Assembly: GCF_013347965.1 (NCBI RefSeq)
Contig: NZ_CP048810.1
Location: 868,001 to 932,000 of the forward strand
Length of the DNA: 64,000 nucleotides
Direction of reading: 5' to 3'
DNA from: Pseudomonas bijieensis
GTDB lineage: Bacteria > Pseudomonadota > Gammaproteobacteria > Pseudomonadales > Pseudomonadaceae
Both the position numbers and the translations under genes were made by a program. A model generated the notes under the pieces. The model saw nothing but the letters and a program-made list of their open reading frames with translations. It ran no database searches and was not told the DNA's origin. Of this stretch, positions 10,208 to 37,635 are shown piece after piece. Within the stretch, counting starts at the first letter, position 1; every line of letters begins with the position of its first letter.

Positions 10208-11605
10208 TTACGATTGTTCGAGCCTCAGGGCATCTGCCAGCGCGCAGAGCGCAGCGTCCATGTCCTGCGGCCCATTCAGGGCATGAGTCAGGCGCATATG
10301 TTGCCCATACAGACCCTGAAGGCTGAACAGCTCCCCCGGCGCGATGACGATGCGCTGGGCAAGCAGCCGATGGAAAACCCTGCGCAAGTCGACCCGTCGC
10401 GTCGACTGCATCCAGATTGTCGCGCCACCTTGGGGCTCTGCCCATTGCAGGCTGTCCCCCAGCCGCTCGCGCAGCAATTGCGTGGTCGAAGTTGCACTTT
10501 CGCGTAGCAAGCGCCGCAAGACCAGCAAGTGCTGGTCGATCCGACCATTGCTGTACAGTCGGGCGATGGCTTTCTGGCGAATCGGCGACAAACGAAACGC
10601 GCGCAGCAGGAAATGTCGCTGCAGGTGCAGGGTCAACTGGCGCGACAACACGTAGCCATACGGCGCCTCCGGACCGATGGTTTTCTCGAACGTCGAATAG
10701 ACGATCAGCCGATCCGGGTCGAGCAAGTCTCGAAAAGGTGTAACCCTAGCCTCGAACACCAGGTCTGTATGGCTATCGTTCTCCAGCACCCAAGTGCCAT
10801 GCCGCTCCAGCAGATGAGCGATGGCGCGACGGTTTTCTTCAGGAACGAACGTGCCCCTGGGCATGTTCAAGACTGAAGACAGCACCACCAGGCGTACCGT
10901 TTCGCTCAGCAGCAGGTGTTCCAGCTGCTCGATATTGATTTCCCCGCCAGCCAGTAGCGGCAATTCGATGACGTGGACCTCCGCCGCCTGCAGCAGGCGC
11001 AGCACTGTCCAATCGCAGGGTGATTCGATCAGCACCACGGCGCCCCTGAGGGCCAGCACTGCGATCAGGATCTCCAGGGCGCCCCGCAGGTCGGCGCCAA
11101 TATAGACGTCATCGGCATTCCAGCAACGGGCCGGTGAGGAGGTATAGCGGGCAGCCAGCGCGTTGCGAAGCTCCAGCTCGCCCCAGGGTTGCGAAGGCGC
11201 CTGCGGGGAGCGTGGGTACTGGCGCAGCAATTCGCGCTCGAGCAACAACAACGGGCTGTCCAATGGCTGCATCGACGCCGGTTCATCCGCACTGAGCACC
11301 TGCATGCCTGGCCGTCGGGCGTTGACGTACAGGGTCTCGAGTAAATCGTCACCGCCGTCCAGGGTCGTCATGCTGGGCGCGGGTAGTGCGTAGTAACCGG
11401 ACTTGGCGATCGAATAGACCCGCCCTTCCTTCTCCAGCAGCGAATACGCGTACTGGATGGTCGATATCGACACGTTCAGACGTTCGGAAAGTTGCCGCAG
11501 CGACGGCAGACGAACCCGCGCATCCACCTCCAGCTCGTTGATCAGCGTGGTCAGGTATCGATAAACCGCCTGGTAGGCGAAGTCCGTCTCCCGGCAGCCT
11601 TTCAT
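10208..11605 (-). CDS. MocR-type regulator (GntR HTH fused to aminotransferase-like domain)
   Basis: A 465-residue fusion. Residues 1-75 form a GntR winged helix (RLPSLRQLSERLNVSISTIQ, then YAYSLLEKEGRVYS). From about 110 onward it is a fold-type I aminotransferase-like domain. The predicted PLP lysine is Lys308 in YSTFEKTIG. These proteins normally sense PLP or an amino-acid adduct rather than catalyse transamination. It lies 96 bp downstream of the unknown 498-residue gene on the same strand, so the two may be co-transcribed. The target is unknown; the neighbouring gene is the obvious candidate. Confidence 0.85.
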   Translation of the reverse strand: MKGCRETDFAYQAVYRYLTTLINELEVDARVRLPSLRQLSERLNVSISTIQYAYSLLEKEGRVYSIAKSGYYALPAPSMTTLDGGDDLLETLYVNARRPGMQVLSADEPASMQPLDSPLLLLERELLRQYPRSPQAPSQPWGELELRNALAARYTSSPARCWNADDVYIGADLRGALEILIAVLALRGAVVLIESPCDWTVLRLLQAAEVHVIELPLLAGGEINIEQLEHLLLSETVRLVVLSSVLNMPRGTFVPEENRRAIAHLLERHGTWVLENDSHTDLVFEARVTPFRDLLDPDRLIVYSTFEKTIGPEAPYGYVLSRQLTLHLQRHFLLRAFRLSPIRQKAIARLYSNGRIDQHLLVLRRLLRESATSTTQLLRERLGDSLQWAEPQGGATIWMQSTRRVDLRRVFHRLLAQRIVIAPGELFSLQGLYGQHMRLTHALNGPQDMDAALCALADALRLEQS

Positions 11606-29029: not shown

Positions 29030-29965
29030 TCACTCTCGCCGCAGGAGAGTGTGGGGAGCAATGCCGAATGCCTTGCGAAAGGCGTGGCTGAAATGAGAGA
29101 AGTCGGAGAAACCGAAATCCAGCGCCGCCTGAGAAATACTGCGGACTTGACCACGCTCAATCGCGTCGCGGCTCGCGAGCAATCGCGCCTTCCAAATTTC
29201 CGCGACCGGCGATTTCTGATGACGAGCGAAAGCACGCGTAACAGTGCGCGTGGAGACATGGTGAGCTTGAGCAATGCGTTCGAGCGACAGGTCCGCCTCG
29301 GTCAAATATTGGCGGATGTAATTCATGATCCGACCATACAGGTCCAACTCGTCATGAGTCTGCTTTAAATCCTGGAGTTCCAGGCTGACCACCAGAAGGT
29401 CGAGCAACGTGCTGGAGTAACGACTGGATACTCCTGTGTTCTGGAAGCCTAATGGCATACTCGCAGCCTGGCGTAGCATCTCGCGTAACGGAATCACCCC
29501 TGGACGACGATCATCCAGAACCACAGCGGTGCAATCTGCTATGCCGGGCAACCGCTGGCTGAGCAGTTGTCGCGGAATGCGGACAAGGTGATTGTCCGTA
29601 CCACCGAAGCTGAATCTGAACGGCTGGGATGCGTCATAAAGAAACAGATCGTCCGCCGTCAGCTTCGTCCGTCGGTCAGCTTGCTCCAGTTCGCCATAAC
29701 CGCTCCTGGTAAAGCCCAACCACAAATCGTCGTTAGGATCACTGCGTAAGTGCTGGGCGGACCGCTCCCAATAGTGCAAGGGTGCGGACAACGTGCAGAT
29801 GTCCAATACGCCCATGCTATGTACCTCCAGCGCCCCGTCAAAATCGCTCTGCGCCAGCAGTTTGCTGTCTGCGTCCAGGCAGTGGTGACAAACCACTTCC
29901 TTCCAGTAATCGAACCGCAGGGGTGCCGTAACGGCAAGGGTTGAATACTGACATGGCTGACTCAT
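29030..29965 (-). CDS. oxdR: AraC-family activator, OxdR-like
   Basis: A 311-residue regulator. Residues 1-190 form an AraC_binding_2-type sensor domain, and about 205-305 carry two helix-turn-helix motifs (SLERIAQAHHVSTRTVTRAF; SISQAALDFGFSDFSHFSHA) of the XylS/AraC DNA-binding domain. I start at ATG 29965 with GAGGTG six bases upstream; the frame is open further but lacks coding character. It is divergent from the aldoxime dehydratase gene, the arrangement known for OxdR in Pseudomonas chlororaphis B23. The tandem 21-bp repeats upstream of three operons here are its likely sites. Confidence 0.8.
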   Translation of the reverse strand: MSQPCQYSTLAVTAPLRFDYWKEVVCHHCLDADSKLLAQSDFDGALEVHSMGVLDICTLSAPLHYWERSAQHLRSDPNDDLWLGFTRSGYGELEQADRRTKLTADDLFLYDASQPFRFSFGGTDNHLVRIPRQLLSQRLPGIADCTAVVLDDRRPGVIPLREMLRQAASMPLGFQNTGVSSRYSSTLLDLLVVSLELQDLKQTHDELDLYGRIMNYIRQYLTEADLSLERIAQAHHVSTRTVTRAFARHQKSPVAEIWKARLLASRDAIERGQVRSISQAALDFGFSDFSHFSHAFRKAFGIAPHTLLRRE

Positions 29966-30217
29966 TGCATTCACCTCGCGGCGGCGGTTCAACAAAAAAG
30001 CGTGGTAACGTTTTTTGCGAGCCAAGCAATTAGCAGGCCATCTCCATAGCCTGATTCCCGCTGCCAGACACCGTGGAAGATAGCCACCTGCGAACTCGGC
30101 TGGAGTTACATAGGTAGATCCCTCCAACACTCCCCATGCCACCTCTCGGGGCGCTCGTCCCCTTATTTCACAAGCCCCGCACCATTGCTGCGCGCTGATA
30201 TGCCGGCCTTTTCTACC
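29966..30217. other. oxdR-oxdA intergenic region, left part
   Basis: This 250-bp stretch leads from the oxdR start to the operator. It contains the oxdR Shine-Dalgarno at its left end and no other gene I can support. The oxdR promoter should be here, but no clear -35/-10 was seen. Confidence 0.4.
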
Positions 30218-30259
30218 TGTCCTTCTTAACCAAACGGTTGTCCATTCGAGCCAAGCACG
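30218..30259 (+). promoter_or_regulatory. Tandem 21-bp operator upstream of oxdA
   Basis: Two direct units start with TGTCC at 30218 and 30239. Both follow the scheme TGTCC-N5-(A/G)-CCAA: the first has AACCAAAC, the second AGCCAAGC. A GATAAT at 30274-30279 could be the -10, placing the second unit over the -35, as for XylS-type activators. The same repeat occurs upstream of the hemoglobin and amidase genes. Confidence 0.7.
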
Positions 30260-30326
30260 TTTCATCTCCCCTGGATAATTTTTACTCCACGCCGTGTCCC
30301 TACAAGCACGAATGATGAGGTGTCTC

Positions 30327-30494
30327 ATGCATCCACGAGAACAGCAGCGACTGTCCGATTCATCCTGGTTTTTACAGCGATGGGACATGGCACCCGAAGA
30401 GTTTGCCACTTACCTGCTACAGCTCGGGACCTTGGTGCTGCAACGCCGATGGAGTGGTACCCACCGCAAAACACCAACATCCACTGGAATGTAG
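30327..30494 (+). CDS. Short ORF in the oxdA leader (55 codons)
   Basis: An ATG at 30327 is preceded by GAGGTG at a proper distance and opens a 55-codon frame ending 42 bases before oxdA. It lies downstream of the operator, so it would be transcribed with oxdA. The peptide (with DMAPEEFATYLLQLGTLVLQ) is helix-like and matches nothing I recognise. It may be a leader peptide, a small protein or chance. Confidence 0.35.
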   Translation: MHPREQQRLSDSSWFLQRWDMAPEEFATYLLQLGTLVLQRRWSGTHRKTPTSTGM

Positions 30495-30536
30495 AACAGA
30501 AAACCGTCCGTTTGAGACGGAAATAAAGGAGCCCCC

Positions 30537-31592
30537 ATGGAATCTGCAATCGATAAACATCTCAAATGTCCCCGGACTTTGTCCCGTCGTGTTCACGACG
30601 ATTACAAGCCACCCTTCCCGATGTTTGTTGGGCGAGCTGACGAAAACGTGAAGCAAGTTGTGATGGCCTACCTCGGGGTGCAATTTCGCGACGAACAACG
30701 CGCCGCCGCCCTGCAGGCCATGCGCTACATTGACGCCAGCTTTGCCCTCTCCGATGGCCCTGGGAATCACGACCTGACCTACCACCTCGACAATCAGGGT
30801 TATGAAAACTTCATCGCCGTGGGCTACTGGCGTGATCCCGCCGCCTATCACCGTTGGTTACTTTCAGCGCCTGTAGCCGACTGGTGGGGTGACGAGGCAC
30901 GCCTGAGCGAGGGACTGGGGTATTTCCGCGAGGTCATCGCACCGCGCGCCGATCAGTTCGAGACGTTGTATGCATTCAAGGAAGATTTGCCAGGTGTCGG
31001 TGCGGTCATGGACGGCATCAGTGGCGAGGTCGAAGAGCACGGCTACTGGGGTTCGGCACGCGACCGATTTGCCATATCACAGACCGATTGGATGCAACCG
31101 ACCGGCGAACTACAAGTGATTTCCGGGGACCCGGCCAAGGGCGGCAAGGTCGTGATACGCGGCCACGACAACCTGACGCTGATCCGTTCTGGACAGGACT
31201 GGGTCGAAGCCGGCGAGGAAGAGCGCGCGCTGTACTTCACCGAAATGCTCCCCCCTCTACAAGACGGCATGAACTTCCTGCGTGACGAGGGCCAGGCGTT
31301 GGGCTGCTACAGCAATCGCTTCGTACGCAATGTCGACCTGGATGGCAATCTGCTCGACATCGCCTATGACATCGGTCACTGGCGATCACTCGACAAACTG
31401 GAACGCTGGGCAGAATCCCATCCCACTCACTTGCGTATTTTCACCACGTTCTTTCGCGTGATCGGGGGCCTTTCGAAGCTGCGGCTGTATCACGAGGTCT
31501 CGGTAGCGGACGGTAGCCAGCAACTGTTCGAGTACATCAACTGCCATCCGCAGACCGGGATGATGCGCGACGCGCAAGTGTCGCCCACCTGA
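30537..31592 (+). CDS. oxdA: Aliphatic aldoxime dehydratase (heme lyase)
   Basis: A 351-residue heme-b enzyme that dehydrates aldoximes to nitriles, the first step of the aldoxime-nitrile pathway. Key family residues align with the P. chlororaphis enzyme when shifted by one: proximal heme ligand His298 (ESHPTHLRIF), distal catalytic His319 (LRLYHEVSV) and Ser218 (LIRSGQDW). The whole chain is collinear with the family and full length. A GGAG site lies just before the ATG. It is divergent from oxdR, has a tandem operator 280 bp upstream and an intrinsic terminator just downstream. It acts in the cytoplasm. Confidence 0.92.
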   Translation: MESAIDKHLKCPRTLSRRVHDDYKPPFPMFVGRADENVKQVVMAYLGVQFRDEQRAAALQAMRYIDASFALSDGPGNHDLTYHLDNQGYENFIAVGYWRDPAAYHRWLLSAPVADWWGDEARLSEGLGYFREVIAPRADQFETLYAFKEDLPGVGAVMDGISGEVEEHGYWGSARDRFAISQTDWMQPTGELQVISGDPAKGGKVVIRGHDNLTLIRSGQDWVEAGEEERALYFTEMLPPLQDGMNFLRDEGQALGCYSNRFVRNVDLDGNLLDIAYDIGHWRSLDKLERWAESHPTHLRIFTTFFRVIGGLSKLRLYHEVSVADGSQQLFEYINCHPQTGMMRDAQVSPT

Positions 31593-31614
31593 TTCCATCG
31601 CTGACTCCACTTTT

Positions 31615-31657
31615 AGCCCTGCGCGTCGCCTGATTGGCGCCTGCGGGGCTCTTTTTG
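31615..31657 (+). terminator. Intrinsic terminator between oxdA and the channel gene
   Basis: AGCCCTGC at 31615-31622 pairs with GCGGGGCT at 31643-31650 (one G-T pair), with an inner CGCC/GGCG stem, and is followed by CTTTTTG. It should end the oxdA transcript or allow partial read-through into the next gene 23 bases on. Confidence 0.75.
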
Positions 31658-31679
31658 CCCGAAAAAAGGATCTTCGATC

Positions 31680-32546
31680 ATGAAACAGTTTCGCTACCTG
31701 TCGCTTGCAGCCCTCCTCCCCTGCCTTTCCTCCCACGCTCTCGAGGTGGATCCTGGCGATTACGAGCCGCTCCCCGTTGGGGCGACCATTGGCGTGGTCT
31801 ACTACCAGCACGCCACCACGGACAATGCCTACTCCCAGGGGCACAAGACCAGTTCCGATTTCAACCTGACTTCCGATATCGGCATTCTGCGTCTGCTGCA
31901 CGTCTACCAGTTGAGCGAGCGGCTGACCATCGAGCCGCAATTCCTGTTGCCCTTCGGTCATGTCTCAGGCGGTGGTGACGCTTCTGGTTTAGGCGACGCC
32001 AGCGGCATCGGCGACCTCATTCTTACAGCGCCGCTCAAGTACCGGCTCAACGATGCCAATGACACCCTCGGTGCGACTGCTTACTTGTACGTGCCTACTG
32101 GCGACTATGACAAAGACGACGCCCTCAACCTTGGCGAGAACCGTTGGAAGGTTGATCTCCAGGCCGCTTACGTCAAGCACTTCTCGGACAAGTGGGCCAT
32201 CGACCTCGTAGGTGACGCCATCTGGTACGCAGACAACAACGACTTCGGCGCCAGCTCCGCCCGTCGGGAGCAGGACGCTTCCTACGGCGCTCAGTTGATG
32301 GGGCGCTACATGCCCGACGAGACAACTGCACTGGCTATCGGCTTCGGCCACAGTTGGGGCGGGGAAAACCAGGTCGATGGTGTCAACCAGGACGACAAGA
32401 CGGAAACCACCAACGTCCGCGTCACGGCCAGAAAGTTTTTCACCGCCAAGGACCAAATCCAAGTGCAACTGGGACGCGACCTTGCGGTGGAGAACGGCCC
32501 CAAGGAGGACTTTCGCATGAACCTGCGCTACGTGCGGGTTTTCTAG
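31680..32546 (+). CDS. Outer-membrane channel of the phenol/MetA-pathway type
   Basis: A 288-residue protein with a Sec signal (MKQFRYLSLAALLPCLSSHA) and alternating beta-strands ending in the C-terminal aromatic signature RYVRVF typical of outer-membrane barrels. It matches the family annotated as MetA-pathway-of-phenol-degradation transporters, often found beside aromatic or solvent catabolism genes. Between oxdA and the hemoglobin gene, its likely job is uptake of aldoxime or nitrile. It begins 88 bp after oxdA, behind a terminator, so its own expression may depend on read-through. Confidence 0.75.
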   Translation: MKQFRYLSLAALLPCLSSHALEVDPGDYEPLPVGATIGVVYYQHATTDNAYSQGHKTSSDFNLTSDIGILRLLHVYQLSERLTIEPQFLLPFGHVSGGGDASGLGDASGIGDLILTAPLKYRLNDANDTLGATAYLYVPTGDYDKDDALNLGENRWKVDLQAAYVKHFSDKWAIDLVGDAIWYADNNDFGASSARREQDASYGAQLMGRYMPDETTALAIGFGHSWGGENQVDGVNQDDKTETTNVRVTARKFFTAKDQIQVQLGRDLAVENGPKEDFRMNLRYVRVF

Positions 32547-32569
32547 ATCCGCCCGCCTCCACCAACCGT

Positions 32570-32611
32570 TGTCCTTATCAACCAAGCGTGTGCCCAACGA
32601 CGAATTCGACT
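32570..32611 (+). promoter_or_regulatory. Tandem 21-bp operator upstream of the hemoglobin gene
   Basis: Unit one at 32570-32590 is TGTCC-TTATC-AACCAAGC plus three bases, a close match to the consensus. Unit two at 32591 keeps only the TGCCC start and is otherwise degenerate. The site lies 96 bp before the hemoglobin ATG. Confidence 0.6.
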
Positions 32612-32706
32612 TGGATCCGTCGCAAGACTTCACATCCCGTAGCAACCGTGCCAACGCGACAGTTGGCTAATGAGATGACCCTCACTCGAAACGGAGAAAC
32701 CAGGCA

Positions 32707-33231
32707 ATGACCGACCAGCAACCCTCCATGGAAAAACAACCCTCCCTCTATACCCGTCTTGGTGGCTATGACGCTATCTATCAGTTCGCAGGCGCAGTGT
32801 TGAGAAAAACAATGGGACACCCCGCCATCGGGCACATCTGGGCCCATATGTCGGAATCAACGTTCCAAAAGGAGCACATCAATTTTGTCGATTTCCTTTC
32901 CGAGCACTGGGGTGGAAGCGCCAAATACAGGGGCAGAGACATGGTCACCGCGCATCGCGGAATGGGTCTGACCGAGGTGCATTGGCAAGCCGTGCTCGAT
33001 TGTCTCGAGGCGTGCTACGACGACTATGGTCTGGCCCCGGATCTGCGCAAGGAGGTCAATGACTTCCTCATCAAGTTCAAACCGGCGGTGATCGGGAGCC
33101 CCTCCTATCGGGACGTCGTACTCGCGCACCCGGAAATGGACCCAGCCAAAGGAATGAAGAGCGTTGGGGTTTTCTGGCCGAAACCCGGGAAGTCCTCGCA
33201 GAAACAGACCACGCCTGAATCCGAAAACTGA
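32707..33231 (+). CDS. Truncated hemoglobin (group I-like)
   Basis: A 174-residue heme protein with a truncated globin core at residues 13-130: SLYTRLGGYDAIYQFAGAVL at the start and proximal His83 in VTAHRGMGLTEVHW. The last 40 residues (KPGKSSQKQTTPESEN) are an extra polar tail. Truncated globins bind O2 or NO or manage redox; none is described to my knowledge as part of an aldoxime pathway. Here it has its own copy of the cluster's operator and lies between the channel and amidase genes. It might protect the O2- or NO-sensitive ferrous heme of aldoxime dehydratase; this is inference. Confidence 0.85.
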   Translation: MTDQQPSMEKQPSLYTRLGGYDAIYQFAGAVLRKTMGHPAIGHIWAHMSESTFQKEHINFVDFLSEHWGGSAKYRGRDMVTAHRGMGLTEVHWQAVLDCLEACYDDYGLAPDLRKEVNDFLIKFKPAVIGSPSYRDVVLAHPEMDPAKGMKSVGVFWPKPGKSSQKQTTPESEN

Positions 33232-33259
33232 CACGCTCGTCAAAACCTGAGCCACACCA

Positions 33260-33289
33260 ATGGGGGCGCATCCATGGGGTGTCCCCCAT
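33260..33289 (+). terminator. Hairpin after the hemoglobin gene
   Basis: ATGGGGG at 33260-33266 pairs with CCCCCAT at 33283-33289 around a 16-base loop, about 30 bases after the stop. There is no U-tract, so termination is only possible. Confidence 0.3.
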
Positions 33290-33534
33290 GCTGCCGAGGC
33301 TCGCTCTGGCAGCCGACGGTTACCGCGGTGTGACTAAAAAAAACACGGGCACCCGCGTCCCGCTCAACCAAGCGAATGTCCTCCTCAACCAAGCACCGCT
33401 CAATTTGCGGAGATAGCTTGATACCAGCCCCGGCCGCGACTTCGTCAATAGTGCACGCCGCGCCCGGGCATCCCGAGATGACGTTTGAACAGACATTGCC
33501 ACCCTACGGGTTGGCACAGGAAACAGGACACCCC
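33290..33534. other. Non-coding region between the hemoglobin and amidase genes
   Basis: With the hairpin just before it, this forms a gap of about 300 bp. It contains the best tandem operator copy (33356-33397) and the amidase Shine-Dalgarno (AGGA about 6 bases before 33535). A frame is open upstream of the amidase ATG from 33376 but lacks an SD and lies inside the operator, so I treat it as non-coding. Confidence 0.6.
33356..33397 (+). promoter_or_regulatory. Tandem 21-bp operator upstream of the amidase-nitrile hydratase operon
   Basis: The clearest copy: unit one 33356-33376 is CGTCC-CGCTC-AACCAAGC-GAA, unit two 33377-33397 is TGTCC-TCCTC-AACCAAGC-ACC, in exact 21-bp register. It ends 137 bp before the amidase ATG. 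Confidence 0.75.
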
Positions 33535-35049
33535 ATGGCCATCATCCGCCCGACTCTCGAACAAGTGCAGGATCTCGCCAGCCGCCTGCACATACAGCTG
33601 ACACCCGAGCAAGCCAGCGAATACCTGGCACTTATGCAACCCAGTTTTGATGCCTATGATCTCGTCGATGAGTTGCCAGACTTCATCCCTCCAGTGCGCT
33701 ATGAGCGCAGCTCTGGTTATCGCCCTTCAAGCACGGATAATCCGCTAAACGCCTGGTACTACAGAACGGAGGTGATGGGTGCCAGTTCGGGCAAACTTGC
33801 TGGCAAGACGGTAGCGCTCAAAGACAATATCTCTCTGGCCGGTGTCCCCATGATGAACGGTGCCGCACCACTGGAGGGTTTCGTACCGTCGTTCGATGCC
33901 ACCGTGGTGACGCGTTTGCTCGACGCTGGGGCAACCATCCTTGGCAAAGCCACTTGTGAGCATTACTGCCTCTCCGGTGGTAGCCACACCTCGGACCCGG
34001 CTCCTGTGCACAACCCTTATCGCCATGGTTTCACCACCGGCGGCTCCTCTTCTGGCAGCGCGGCGCTTGTGGCGTCGGGCGAGGTCGACCTGGCTGTCGG
34101 TGGAGACCAGGGCGGCTCCATCCGCATTCCGGCAGCATGGTGCGGCATTTACGGAATGAAGCCCACCTTCGGTCTGGTGCCCTATACCGGCGTCATGGCG
34201 ATCGAGTCCACTTTCGACCATGTCGGCCCCATGACGAGCAACGTGCGCGATAACGCTCTCATGCTGGAAGTGATGGCCGGAGCCGACGGGCTCGACCCTC
34301 GCCAGAGCGCCCCCAAGGTCGATGCCTATTGCGATTATTTGGAGCGAGGCGTGATCGGACTCAGGATCGGGGTTCTCCAGGAAGGCTTCCAACTCGCAAA
34401 CCAAGATCCACGTATCGCAGAAAAGGTGCGCAGCGCTATCGCCCGACTCGAGGCGTTGGGCGCGCGGGTCGAGGAGGTCTCGGTTCCCGAACACACCCTG
34501 GCGGGATCGTTGTGGAGCCCAATCGGCTGTGAAGGCCTGACCATGCAAATGATGCATGGCAACGGAGCGGGTTTTAACTGGAAGGGGCTTTACGACGTGG
34601 GCCTGCTGGACAAACAGGCCGGTTGGCGCGATCAGGCGAACGCATTGTCCCCGTCACTCAAGCTCTGCATGTTCGTGGGCCAGTTCGGTCTGGAGCGCTA
34701 CAACGGTCGCTACTACGCCAAGGCCCAGAACATTGCGCGCTTTGCCCGAGCTGCCTATGACAAGGCGTTGAACACCTATGACCTGCTCGTCATGCCAACC
34801 GTACCAATCACCGCTCAGCCGCTGCCGGAACCGGGGTCTTCAATCACCGAGACCGTCACTCGTGCGTTGGAGATGTTAGGCAACACGGCCGCTCAGGACG
34901 TTACCGGGCACCCCGCCATGTCGATCCCTTGTGGCCTGGTGGACGGACTGCCCGTAGGGCTGATGTTTGTCGCAAGACATTATGCCGAAGGCACCCTCTA
35001 CCAAGCCGCAGCTGCATTCGAGGCCTCTGTCGATTGGCGGACGTTGTAA
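33535..35049 (+). CDS. amiA: Amidase (amidase-signature family), nitrile pathway
   Basis: A 504-residue cytosolic amidase that hydrolyses the amide produced by nitrile hydratase to acid and ammonia. The Ser-cisSer-Lys triad falls at Lys96 (ALKDNIS), Ser171 ([11 protein letters not shown]) and Ser195 ([11 protein letters not shown]), the same numbers as in the Rhodococcus nitrile-pathway amidase. An N-terminal helical segment of about 70 residues, typical of this subgroup, is present. ATG 33535 is preceded by AGGACA. Nitrile hydratase genes follow 76 bp downstream, and a tandem operator precedes it, so it opens the second operon of the cluster. Confidence 0.92.
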
Positions 35050-35125: not shown

Positions 35126-35788
35126 ATGAGCCATACGCACGAACATCATCACCATCACCATCACCATCACCATCACCATCACCATCACGACCACACCGAG
35201 CCACCCGAGACCATCGCCTTGCGTGTCAAGGCGCTCGAATCCCTGTTAATAGAAAAAGGCCTGGTCGACCCAACCGCCATGGATGCTCTGGTGGACACTT
35301 ACCAACACAAGGTCGGCCCGCGCAACGGCGCTCAGGTGATCGCCAAGGCCTGGTCCGATCCCGAATACAAACATCGGCTGCTGGACGATGCCACGGCGGC
35401 CATTGCCGAACTGGGTTTTTCCGGCGTGCAGGGCGAAGACATGGTGGTGGTGGAGAACACCGCGACCGTGCACAACGTGACGGTCTGCACGCTGTGCTCC
35501 TGCTACCCCTGGCCGACCCTGGGCCTGCCCCCAGCCTGGTACAAATCCGCGCCCTATCGCTCACGGATCGTCATCGATCCGCGCAGTGTGCTGGCCGAAT
35601 TCGGTTTGCTTATTCCCAATGACAAGGAAGTTCGCGTCTGGGACAGCAGTGCTGAGCTGCGCTACCTGGTACTGCCGGAACGTCCGGCTGGCACTGACGG
35701 CTGGAGCGAGGAACGACTGGTCGAGCTGGTGACGCGGGACGCCATGATCGGCACCGGCCTGCCCAAGACGCCGGGCGACGAAGCCTGA
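35126..35788 (+). CDS. nthA: Nitrile hydratase alpha subunit, cobalt type, with polyhistidine N-terminus
   Basis: A 220-residue metal-binding subunit that hydrates nitriles to amides. The claw motif [11 protein letters not shown] places Cys121, Cys124, Ser125 and Cys126 as ligands. Thr at 122 and Tyr after the last Cys mark the cobalt type; iron enzymes, including that of P. chlororaphis B23, have CSLCSC. The start is remarkable: 18 of the first 23 residues are His, with 15 in a row at 7-21. AGAGGAG precedes the ATG. It is followed by the beta gene 19 bp on. A cobalt permease lies in the same operon. Confidence 0.93.
35144..35188 (+). repeat. CAT/CAC microsatellite encoding 15 histidines
   Basis: A CAT followed by seven tandem copies of the hexamer CATCAC gives 15 consecutive His codons at the N-terminus of the nitrile hydratase alpha subunit. 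Length changes by whole hexamers would keep the frame, so the tract can vary without loss of the protein. Confidence 0.9.
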
Positions 35789-35807: not shown

Positions 35808-36461
35808 ATGAACGGTGTACACGACTTAGGCGGTATGCACGGTTTCGGCCCGGTGCTCACCGAAGAAAATGAACCGATCTTCCATCACGACTGGGAGCGC
35901 AGGATCTTTCCGCTGTTCGCCTCGCTCTTCGTCGGCGGACACTTCAATGTCGACGAGTTCCGGCATTCCATTGAACGCATGGAGCCGTCTGAATACTTGC
36001 AGTCGAGTTACTACGAGCACTGGCTGCACGCCTTCGAGACCCTGCTGCTGGAAAAAGGCGTGATCAGCGCTGCCGAACTGCAGGGCACGGCCAAACCGAC
36101 CTCACCGGCACAGCCCCCTACGGTGCTCACACCGGACATCGTCGAGGCGGTGATCCTCGGGGGAGCCTCTTCCCGGGCAAAGGAACATGTCAGCGGCCGC
36201 TTCCGGGTCGGTGACCGGGTGCGGACGAAGAATCTCAATCCAACCACCCACACTCGACTGCCGCGTTACGCGCGCGGCAAGGTCGGGACAATCGAGATTG
36301 CACACGGAGCGTTTGCTACCCCAGACACGATGGCCCACGGTCTAGGCGAACAACCCCAACAGGTCTATGCCGTTCGCTTCAGTGCTACAGAGTTGTGGGG
36401 AGTGGCGCGACCGGACAGTGTTTGCATTGATCTGTGGGACAACTATCTGGAGGCCGTATGA
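35808..36461 (+). CDS. nthB: Nitrile hydratase beta subunit
   Basis: A 217-residue partner of the alpha subunit, recognised from MNGVHDLGGMHGFGPV at the start and the C-terminal barrel with RFRVGDRVRTKN, HTRLPRYARGKVG and GVARPDSVCIDLW. The arginine of RLPRYARG would hydrogen-bond the oxidised cysteines of alpha. AAGGAG lies just upstream. Its stop overlaps the start of the activator gene (ATGA), indicating tight coupling. Confidence 0.93.
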   Translation: MNGVHDLGGMHGFGPVLTEENEPIFHHDWERRIFPLFASLFVGGHFNVDEFRHSIERMEPSEYLQSSYYEHWLHAFETLLLEKGVISAAELQGTAKPTSPAQPPTVLTPDIVEAVILGGASSRAKEHVSGRFRVGDRVRTKNLNPTTHTRLPRYARGKVGTIEIAHGAFATPDTMAHGLGEQPQQVYAVRFSATELWGVARPDSVCIDLWDNYLEAV

Positions 36462-36898
36462 GCGCAAGCATGCCTTTCATCCCGCCAATAGCCGGTCTGT
36501 CTCTCGACGATGAAGGCCCGGTGTTCGACAAACCTTGGCAGGCCCAGGCCTTTTCCCTGCTGCTGCACCTGCACCAAACCGGTCTGTTTCCCTGGAAGGA
36601 CTGGGTGCAGGTATTCAGCGACGAGATCAAGGCTGCCCCGGCGCAACCCGGAGAAAGCGTCAACGACACTTACTACCGGCAATGGATTACAGCGATGGAA
36701 AGAATGATCACCACACTCGGCTTAGCGGGTATGGAAGACATCACCCAGCGCACCGAGGAATGGCAGCGAGCTTACTTGAATACCCCCCATGGACAACCGG
36801 TGGCACTGCTCAATGCGAGTTGCCCACCGGCCCATGGAAACGGGCACGAACACCTGCCACGGCACGAGCCCGTAGCGATCAGCCGTGCCACTCGCTGA
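36458..36898 (+). CDS. Nitrile hydratase activator / metallochaperone (P14K/NhlE-like)
   Basis: A 146-residue protein homologous to the N-terminal part of the beta subunit (FDKPWQAQAFSLLLHLHQTG, FPWKDWVQVFSDEIK, YYRQWITAMERMI). That is the hallmark of cobalt-type activators that insert metal by self-subunit swapping. The C-terminal tail is polar with several His (PAHGNGHEHLPRHEP), suited to metal delivery. Iron-type systems instead use a large P47K GTPase, absent here, so this gene independently supports the cobalt assignment. It starts inside the beta stop codon. Confidence 0.85.
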   Translation: MSASMPFIPPIAGLSLDDEGPVFDKPWQAQAFSLLLHLHQTGLFPWKDWVQVFSDEIKAAPAQPGESVNDTYYRQWITAMERMITTLGLAGMEDITQRTEEWQRAYLNTPHGQPVALLNASCPPAHGNGHEHLPRHEPVAISRATR

Positions 36899-36957: not shown

Positions 36958-37635
36958 ATGCATATCGAACCTAACCTGGTGGAAGCTGGAAAAATCTGGC
37001 TGAGCTATGTCACTGCCGCAGGTGTCGGCGCCTACACCCTCAAACTCGCTGCGCAAGCCATCGGTGAGCGTGGTGTCTTCTCGCTGCTAGCTCGCACTGT
37101 CACTGCCACGGCCTTGGTGTTCAGCTTCTTCGAGCTACTACCGCACTATCCAGTCGGTGTTTCCGAGGTGCATCTCATCCTGGGGTCAACCCTGTTCCTG
37201 CTGCTTGGCGCCGCCCCCGCGGCGGCGGGTCTCGCCCTGGGACTGCTGATTCAGAGCCTGTTCTTCGCGCCATTCGACCTGCCGCAATACGGCATGAACA
37301 TCACCACCCTTCTGGTACCGCTGTTCGCAGTCGCTACCCTGGCGAAACGCATCATCGCGCCAAACACGCCGTACGTGGAGCTGAGCTATAGACAAGCTCT
37401 GGGGCTGTCGACGGCCTTCCAGGCGGGCATTGTCGCCTGGGTTGCCTTCTGGGCCTTCTACGGGCAAGGCTTCACAGCAGAAAACGCAATGTCAATTCTG
37501 ACCTTCGGCAGTGCCTACATGACCGTTGTCACCCTCGAGCCGCTGTTGGACCTGGCCGTGCTGGCCGGTGCCAAGGCAACCCATCGATTGCGTGGTAGCA
37601 CGCTGGTCGAGCGCCGGCTGTACCAGGCCGCCTGA
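36958..37635 (+). CDS. cbiM: CbiM-family cobalt transport permease
   Basis: A 225-residue inner-membrane protein with about six hydrophobic helices. The N-terminus MHIEPN preserves the Met-His start that binds the metal in CbiM-type substrate components of ECF transporters. It lies 60 bp after the activator gene in the nitrile hydratase operon, so its natural role is cobalt supply. No CbiN, CbiQ or CbiO gene is beside it; it must work alone or borrow the energising module. AAGGGG precedes the ATG. Confidence 0.8.
   Translation: MHIEPNLVEAGKIWLSYVTAAGVGAYTLKLAAQAIGERGVFSLLARTVTATALVFSFFELLPHYPVGVSEVHLILGSTLFLLLGAAPAAAGLALGLLIQSLFFAPFDLPQYGMNITTLLVPLFAVATLAKRIIAPNTPYVELSYRQALGLSTAFQAGIVAWVAFWAFYGQGFTAENAMSILTFGSAYMTVVTLEPLLDLAVLAGAKATHRLRGSTLVERRLYQAA

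Follow-up and report, generated by a model that had tools for sequence, protein, structure and literature searches.

The closest described system is that of Pseudomonas chlororaphis B23, in which NhpR, a XylS/AraC-type regulator, is reportedly needed for induction of its gene cluster (oxdA-amiA-nhpABC), as Sakashita et al. are said to have found in 2008. We analyzed a 64,000-nucleotide stretch of Pseudomonas bijieensis DNA (contig NZ_CP048810.1, positions 868,001 to 932,000; hereafter the window, taken from a genome of 6.73 Mb in one contig), which carries a cluster of this kind together with tandem repeats that we interpret as operators of its regulator. The gene for the AraC-type regulator lies on the minus strand, divergent from oxdA, and is followed on the plus strand by oxdA, a porin gene, a hemoglobin (globin) gene, an amidase gene, the nitrile hydratase alpha, beta and accessory genes, and a gene for CbiM. 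By this gene order, the window regulator presumably corresponds to NhpR of B23. In both clusters oxdA adjoins an AraC/XylS-type gene, and the genes for amidase and nitrile hydratase follow downstream, but the window has the porin and globin genes between oxdA and amiA and an operator pair of amiA's own. Its nitrile hydratase is of the cobalt type and accompanied by CbiM, whereas that of B23 is of the iron type according to PMC8955678.

The same review describes the B23 and Rhodococcus clusters and the AraC-type NitR of other clusters, and its main text does not mention a globin, an operator or a promoter. As described there, the NitR clusters of Bacillus and Bradyrhizobium share with the window an AraC-family gene beside oxd, but they carry a nitrilase in place of nitrile hydratase. 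The best NCBIfam match of the window regulator was FeaR of Escherichia coli, which belongs to amine catabolism; this assignment was rejected, as the match (E 1.2e-35) reached 123.4 bits against a cut-off of 199. The FeaR pathway also differs from that of the window. At the Pm promoter of the TOL plasmid, the XylS sites have a 21-bp spacing and overlap the -35 region, and xylS itself has a sigma-54 promoter. PMC5481539 describes the XylS operator as a pair of homologous direct repeats of 15 bp, in each of which 6 bp separate a box A (TGCA) from a box B (GGTA). The window sequences share this plan of two direct repeats with two boxes each, but their half-site is TGTCC-N5-AACCAAGC rather than TGCA-N6-GGTA, and the operator occurs at two promoters of one cluster. 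The link between the regulator and the cluster is probably already known. An operator definition, a sigma-54 element common to several genera and a place for the globin in the regulon were not found in the open-licence literature searched, where some searches were swamped by unrelated words.

The initial annotation had reported three pairs of half-sites in exact 21-bp register, upstream of oxdA, the globin gene and the amidase gene. Mismatches were counted against TGTCC-N5-AACCAAGC, and the half-sites at 30218, 30239, 32570, 33356 and 33377 showed 1, 1, 0, 1 and 0, respectively, in agreement with the claim that five of the six are good matches; the geometry of the sixth is wrong. The pairs 30218/30239 and 33356/33377 are in exact register, whereas 32570 stands alone: its best upstream partner, at 32550, has 4 mismatches and lies 20 bp away, and the unit exactly 21 bp upstream (32549) has 8. 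Two of the three sites therefore show the class II promoter geometry of direct half-sites about 21 bp apart and oriented to the gene. At both of these, the proximal half-site appears to occupy the place of the -35, a -10-like box follows about 19 nt further on, and a consensus -35 is absent. A scan for consensus sigma-70 promoters between 29900 and 37700 found no full promoter (2.5 expected), as would be expected where an activator stands in for the -35.

Throughout the genome, exact half-sites occur only twice, both inside the cluster. With up to one mismatch there are 11 places (three for the reversed-pattern control), of which five fall inside one 3.2-kb stretch of the cluster; from the six outside places, 0.003 would be expected in such a stretch. 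At up to one mismatch, a relaxed pattern for the 39-nt pair matched only 30218 (0 mismatches) and 33356 (1 mismatch), and five more places appeared only at 3 mismatches (two for the reversed control). The motif is thus not scattered over the genome, and no further regulon members were found elsewhere in it by the pair pattern at up to one mismatch. Single half-sites at up to 3 mismatches are close to chance in the window (24, against 17.98 ± 4.02 expected; 9 of 100 shuffles reach 24), indicating that the signal is carried by the pair and not by the lone half-site.

We examined the operator in related loci. A scan with the regulator protein yielded 38 loci from Pseudomonas, Brenneria, Pectobacterium, Raoultella, Klebsiella, Pantoea and Marinobacterium, and one more (L050) was added through an exact pattern search that matched one of 398 genomes, giving 39 loci besides the window. 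A first look allowed spacings of 20-22 bp, and only 21 bp turned up. Using a half-site matrix built from 57 distinct pairs (scores of matrix pairs, 33.8-59.7), we detected 158 half-sites, 144 of them in 72 pairs and 14 single. All 72 pairs had a spacing of exactly 21 bp and one orientation, and no other spacing occurred within 60 nt. By position, 37 precede oxdA (or the porin gene where oxdA was not found), 36 precede amiA and 3 precede the globin gene. A TANNNT box lies 18-20 nt past the proximal half-site at 34 of 37 oxdA-type promoters (the exceptions being L027, L030 and L031) and 19-20 nt past it at all 36 amidase-type promoters. Information content, computed on 17 oxdA-type and 19 amidase-type non-redundant promoters, was 1.66 and 1.64 bits per position in the box cores and 0.97 and 1.05 in the -10 box, compared with 0.34 and 0.20 in the upstream flank and 0.29 and 0.33 between box and -10. 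Spacing, orientation and the position of the predicted -10 are conserved through Pseudomonas, several Enterobacterales and Marinobacterium. Two single half-sites (L045, 11009; L046, 11514) lie inside same-strand reading frames (281 aa, start MKLIKSTTLILC) and were discounted as chance matches. In L037, a weak pair (9999, score 29.8) was seen beyond nhpR, with a reading frame (at 10469) following some 430 nt later.

We next compared the distribution of the operator with that of the regulator in 398 Pseudomonas genomes. The regulator (E ≤ 1e-60) was present in 35. Pairs at up to one mismatch occurred in 50 genomes, namely every one of the 35 regulator genomes and 15 that lack the regulator. Zero-mismatch pairs were found in 33 of the 35 (not in G256 and G389) and in none of the 363 regulator-free genomes, with one match among the 398 for the reversed control. 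The oxdA gene (E ≤ 1e-60) was present in 48 genomes, 13 of which have no regulator. Among the latter, G335 (locus L124) encodes a close OxdA (76% identical), has no nhpR match and no pair 5' of the amidase gene, and has a different AraC gene (about 26% identical) at the far end of its cluster; its pair before oxdA scores 31.5, below the range of the matrix pairs. G210 (OxdA 53% identical) has a divergent AraC gene of 25% identity and no pair. A one-mismatch match in G166 lies on a different contig from its oxdA, and 10 other regulator-free oxdA genomes have none. The genome containing the window encodes a single NhpR-type regulator, whose next relatives there are 30% and 26% identical. The proposal that the two-half-site XylS/AraC geometry belongs with the AraC-type gene of the cluster is thus supported, as far as sequence can tell, by the uniform spacing of the pairs and by their co-occurrence with the regulator.

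The regulator contains the AraC_binding_2, HTH_18 and HTH_AraC domains, all above the Pfam cut-off, which places it in the AraC/XylS family. Its relatives in the 38 fetched loci are 61-96% identical (L049 aligned over residues 31-308 only), and the nearest named ones are from Pseudomonas strains. Upstream of its gene, the window contains a sigma-54-type element with the form GG-N10-GC, including TGGC and TTGC. The strict form TGGC-N7-TTGC, sought within 60-115 nt before nhpR, was found at 72-108 nt in 32 of 38 loci, a count that does not include L049 and L050; shuffled sequences gave 0.05 loci and the opposite strand none. When the pattern was relaxed afterwards, the element was found in 38 of 38. 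On the plus strand between 29900 and 37700, only partial matches to sigma-54 elements were detected. Furthermore, TGGTGC occurs 190-250 nt before nhpR in 22 of the 38 loci (no control). The sigma-54 element suggests nitrogen control of the activator, which would fit a pathway that yields ammonia.

Taken together, we consider it highly probable (roughly 0.88) that the pairs are class II operators of an NhpR-type activator with two driven units, that the activator gene is read from a sigma-54 promoter, and that the globin operator is a relic. Two activator subunits would bind head-to-tail on half-sites 21 bp, or two helical turns, apart. With the proximal half-site overlying the place of the missing -35, the bound activator would recruit RNA polymerase to the -10 box 19 nt downstream. 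The first unit driven in this way would be oxdA, with the porin and globin genes reached partly by read-through past a hairpin, and the second would be the amidase-nitrile hydratase-cobalt transporter unit. As the activator gene would itself be read from a sigma-54 promoter, possibly under NtrC, the pathway may open under nitrogen limitation when an inducer is also present. The globin operator of this strain would be what remains of a promoter still intact in relatives. Judged by its sequence features, the cluster forms an AraC/XylS regulon of class II, a kind already known, with apparently real operators at two promoters and a relic at a third. The regulon put forward in the initial annotation is accordingly retained for the operator common to the oxdA and amidase promoters and given up for an operator of the globin's own; the name OxdR given to it there could not be confirmed.

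The globin gene was examined separately. It lies between two operator-bearing genes on one strand, and the promoter region before it in the window lacks an intact pair with a -10 box. A lone globin half-site is also present in L012, L050 and L127; the site is lost in L013, and L040, L042 and L043 have none. Full globin pairs with a -10-like box occur in L021 (genome G157), L044 and L046, that of L021 at the same place as the window site. G278 and G281 each carry an nhpR-oxdA-amiA cluster with an iron-type nitrile hydratase and, on another contig (L088 and L089), a globin gene with a cobalt-type nitrile hydratase and CbiM. In the stretch fetched from these second contigs, no oxdA or amidase match and no close nhpR were found. 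Intact pairs are present there before the globin gene in both genomes and also before the nitrile hydratase genes in G278, and an AraC-type gene just beyond CbiM is 26% (G278) and 25% (G281) identical to NhpR. A weaker 21-bp pair precedes a porin homolog near this paralog (L088, 12613-12651; L089, 11803-11841) and is possibly the same type of operator in a sister system.

Globin genes were detected in 10 of the 35 regulator genomes at E ≤ 1e-20. At E ≤ 1e-25, a sample of 363 genomes from the genus contained 9 with such a gene, all nine with the regulator; this sample is not the same set as the 363 regulator-free genomes, and the regulator genome G389 lies outside it. A protein search outside Pseudomonas gave 81 globin relatives, some of them labelled as coming from actinobacteria and Nevskia. 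Within Pseudomonas, the globin thus goes with what we take from sequence to be the NhpR-type control system. The earlier assignment of the globin to the regulon therefore stands on its place between two operator-bearing genes, on its nine regulator-bearing carriers and on the intact pairs of other genomes, but not on a working operator of its own in this strain. Here, transcripts running on from oxdA and the porin gene most likely account for expression of the globin, and such read-through may be partial because of the terminator-like hairpin and U tract between those two genes. In the globin itself, a Leu aligns to position 25 of a Tetrahymena group 1 hemoglobin entry, which we take to be B10, usually a Tyr, and a Trp stands at the CD1 place; both residues are invariant in 14 cluster globins. 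The globin match in G076 (C325:5563-6079) is split into two overlapping pieces, and the gene there is probably frameshifted or mis-assembled.

Several observations weigh against the interpretation of the pairs as NhpR-type operators. A one-mismatch match is present in 15 of the 363 regulator-free genomes, 12 of these being one recurring sequence, and L124 retains its weak box with no nhpR match. L049 has no pair by the matrix search, and L044, L045 and L046 have none directly 5' of amiA; in L044 and L046, the gap between the globin gene and amiA is at most ~90 nt, so the globin pair likely serves both genes. The AraC-type neighbour on the second contigs of G278 and G281 could read the pairs there. 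Co-occurrence could also partly reflect shared descent, with sites inherited along with the cluster. Moreover, the matrix and the pattern came from regulator-bearing loci, so that sensitivity and core information are partly given by construction; the evidence independent of this is the lack of pairs in other genomes, the test in which spacing was left free, and the -10 box, which was not chosen by pair score.

It is unlikely that all three operators work and that the globin has its own promoter here through 32570. A perfect half-site does lie 120 nt before the globin start, and globin pairs with a -10-like box are present in the five loci named above (L021, L044, L046, L088 and L089). According to PMC5481539, XylS fills its proximal site first, so one half might keep weak activity. 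However, the upstream half is degraded at either spacing, no TANNNT lies 18-20 nt past 32570, and the single-half state recurs in three other loci, with the site gone in a fourth. Still less probable is a reading of the pairs by some other regulator acting on the cluster, either an AraC paralog or a nitrogen regulator. AraC-type paralogs of 25-30% identity do exist, one of them adjoining the second-contig cluster of G278 and G281, in which the weaker pair precedes the porin homolog, and L124 combines its weak box with such a paralog. Set against this, zero-mismatch pairs are absent from all 363 nhpR-free genomes, and Pseudomonas genomes usually carry many AraC-type genes. The paralogous aldoxime cluster L125, with a divergent AraC gene of 25% identity, likewise has no such pair; a repeat search found no clear 21-bp repeat in its regulator-porin spacer. 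Chance similarity, or a non-regulatory origin of the repeats such as duplication remnants between two promoters, is hardly credible given that spacing, core and -10 are conserved across genera while the flanks have diverged, even though recombination between half-sites seems to have occurred in L014, where the globin gene is missing. In that locus, the left half of the globin site lies beside the second amidase half-site in the porin-amidase spacer, an arrangement that looks like a recombination product between two operators.

The enzymes behind these operators vary. CTLCSC marks cobalt-type and CSLCSC iron-type nitrile hydratase, and the 37 loci with an alpha subunit divide into 13 and 24, respectively. 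CbiM accompanies 10 of the 13 cobalt-type and none of the 24 iron-type loci, and the globin 8 of 13 and 1 of 24 (Fisher p 0.00025, uncorrected for relatedness). As the same operators precede iron- and cobalt-type clusters, enzyme modules appear to have been exchanged under a constant control element. The globin might be a dedicated part of the regulon that serves nitrile hydratase rather than aldoxime dehydratase, dealing with oxygen for cysteine or cobalt oxidation during maturation of the cobalt enzyme; we regard this as doubtful. In its favor, besides the counts just given, L040, L042 and L043 have the globin with no oxdA found in the fetched stretch, and the second contigs of G278 and G281 combine cobalt nitrile hydratase genes with a globin that has an intact operator to itself. 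On the other hand, the iron-type locus L126, which is not part of the 37, has a globin, and five cobalt-type loci have none, which argues against a strict link between globin and cobalt.

The features of the cluster are listed in the table below. The solved chain matched by OxdA, 3w08, is the B23 aldoxime dehydratase according to PMC8955678. The hairpin between oxdA and the porin gene folds at -27.6 kcal/mol (z -2.12; 6 of 200 shuffles fold equally well), and L012-L014 and L021 have a similar one. A simple terminator scan returned 13 sites (6.6 expected), and this hairpin was not on its list. Strong hairpins were also noted 3' of the globin gene at 33229-33355 (fold -53.4 kcal/mol, z -3.0), with no obvious U tract.

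Features of the aldoxime-nitrile cluster and its putative control elements, in window coordinates.
Feature	Position	Strand	Basis
nhpR-like AraC/XylS-family activator gene (putative), 311 aa; longer GTG frame to 30409 unneeded	29030..29965	-	Pfam
Sigma-54-type -24/-12 element TGGCCTGCTAATTGC, starting 75 nt before the nhpR start codon	30026..30040	-	
Weak NtrC-like element (TGGTGCG half), possible nhpR enhancer	30178..30194	-	Suggestive, no control run
Tandem operator pair (predicted), oxdA promoter; half-sites 30218 and 30239 at 21-bp spacing	30218..30256	+	Pattern and related loci
-10-like box TAATTT, oxdA promoter, 19 nt past proximal half-site	30276..30281	+	
oxdA, aliphatic aldoxime dehydratase	30537..31592	+	NCBIfam NF050090 above cut-off; solved chain 3w08, E 3.4e-187
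Terminator-like hairpin, then CUUUUU, between oxdA and porin gene	31615..31650	+	RNA fold
Outer-membrane channel-like gene ("porin")	31680..32546	+	Phenol_MetA_deg, PF13557
Decayed upstream half-site at globin, 4 mismatches, 20 bp before 32570	32550..32567	+	
Lone perfect half-site 5' of globin, without TANNNT at 18-20 nt	32570..32587	+	
Group 1 truncated hemoglobin	32707..33231	+	PF01152; best solved chains are group 1 truncated hemoglobins
Tandem operator pair (predicted), amidase-nitrile hydratase promoter; half-sites 33356 and 33377 at 21-bp spacing	33356..33394	+	
-10-like box TAGCTT, amidase promoter, 19 nt past proximal half-site	33414..33419	+	
Amidase, amiA-like	33535..35049	+	PRK07235 amidase above cut-off
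Nitrile hydratase alpha, CTLCSC motif (cobalt type)	35126..35788	+	TIGR01323; 3qxe Co-type, E 4e-110
Nitrile hydratase beta	35808..36461	+	TIGR03888
Nitrile hydratase accessory protein (longer frame 36434-36898 scanned)	36458..36898	+	TIGR03889
CbiM-type cobalt uptake membrane protein	36958..37635	+	PF01891

These results provide an exact, testable operator for the presumed activator of two industrially interesting enzymes, aldoxime dehydratase and nitrile hydratase. They also lead us to propose a two-tier circuit, in which a sigma-54 promoter would supply the activator and class II operators would then respond to it. Finally, they connect a hemoglobin without a known use with a defined pathway, so that its role can be put to the test.

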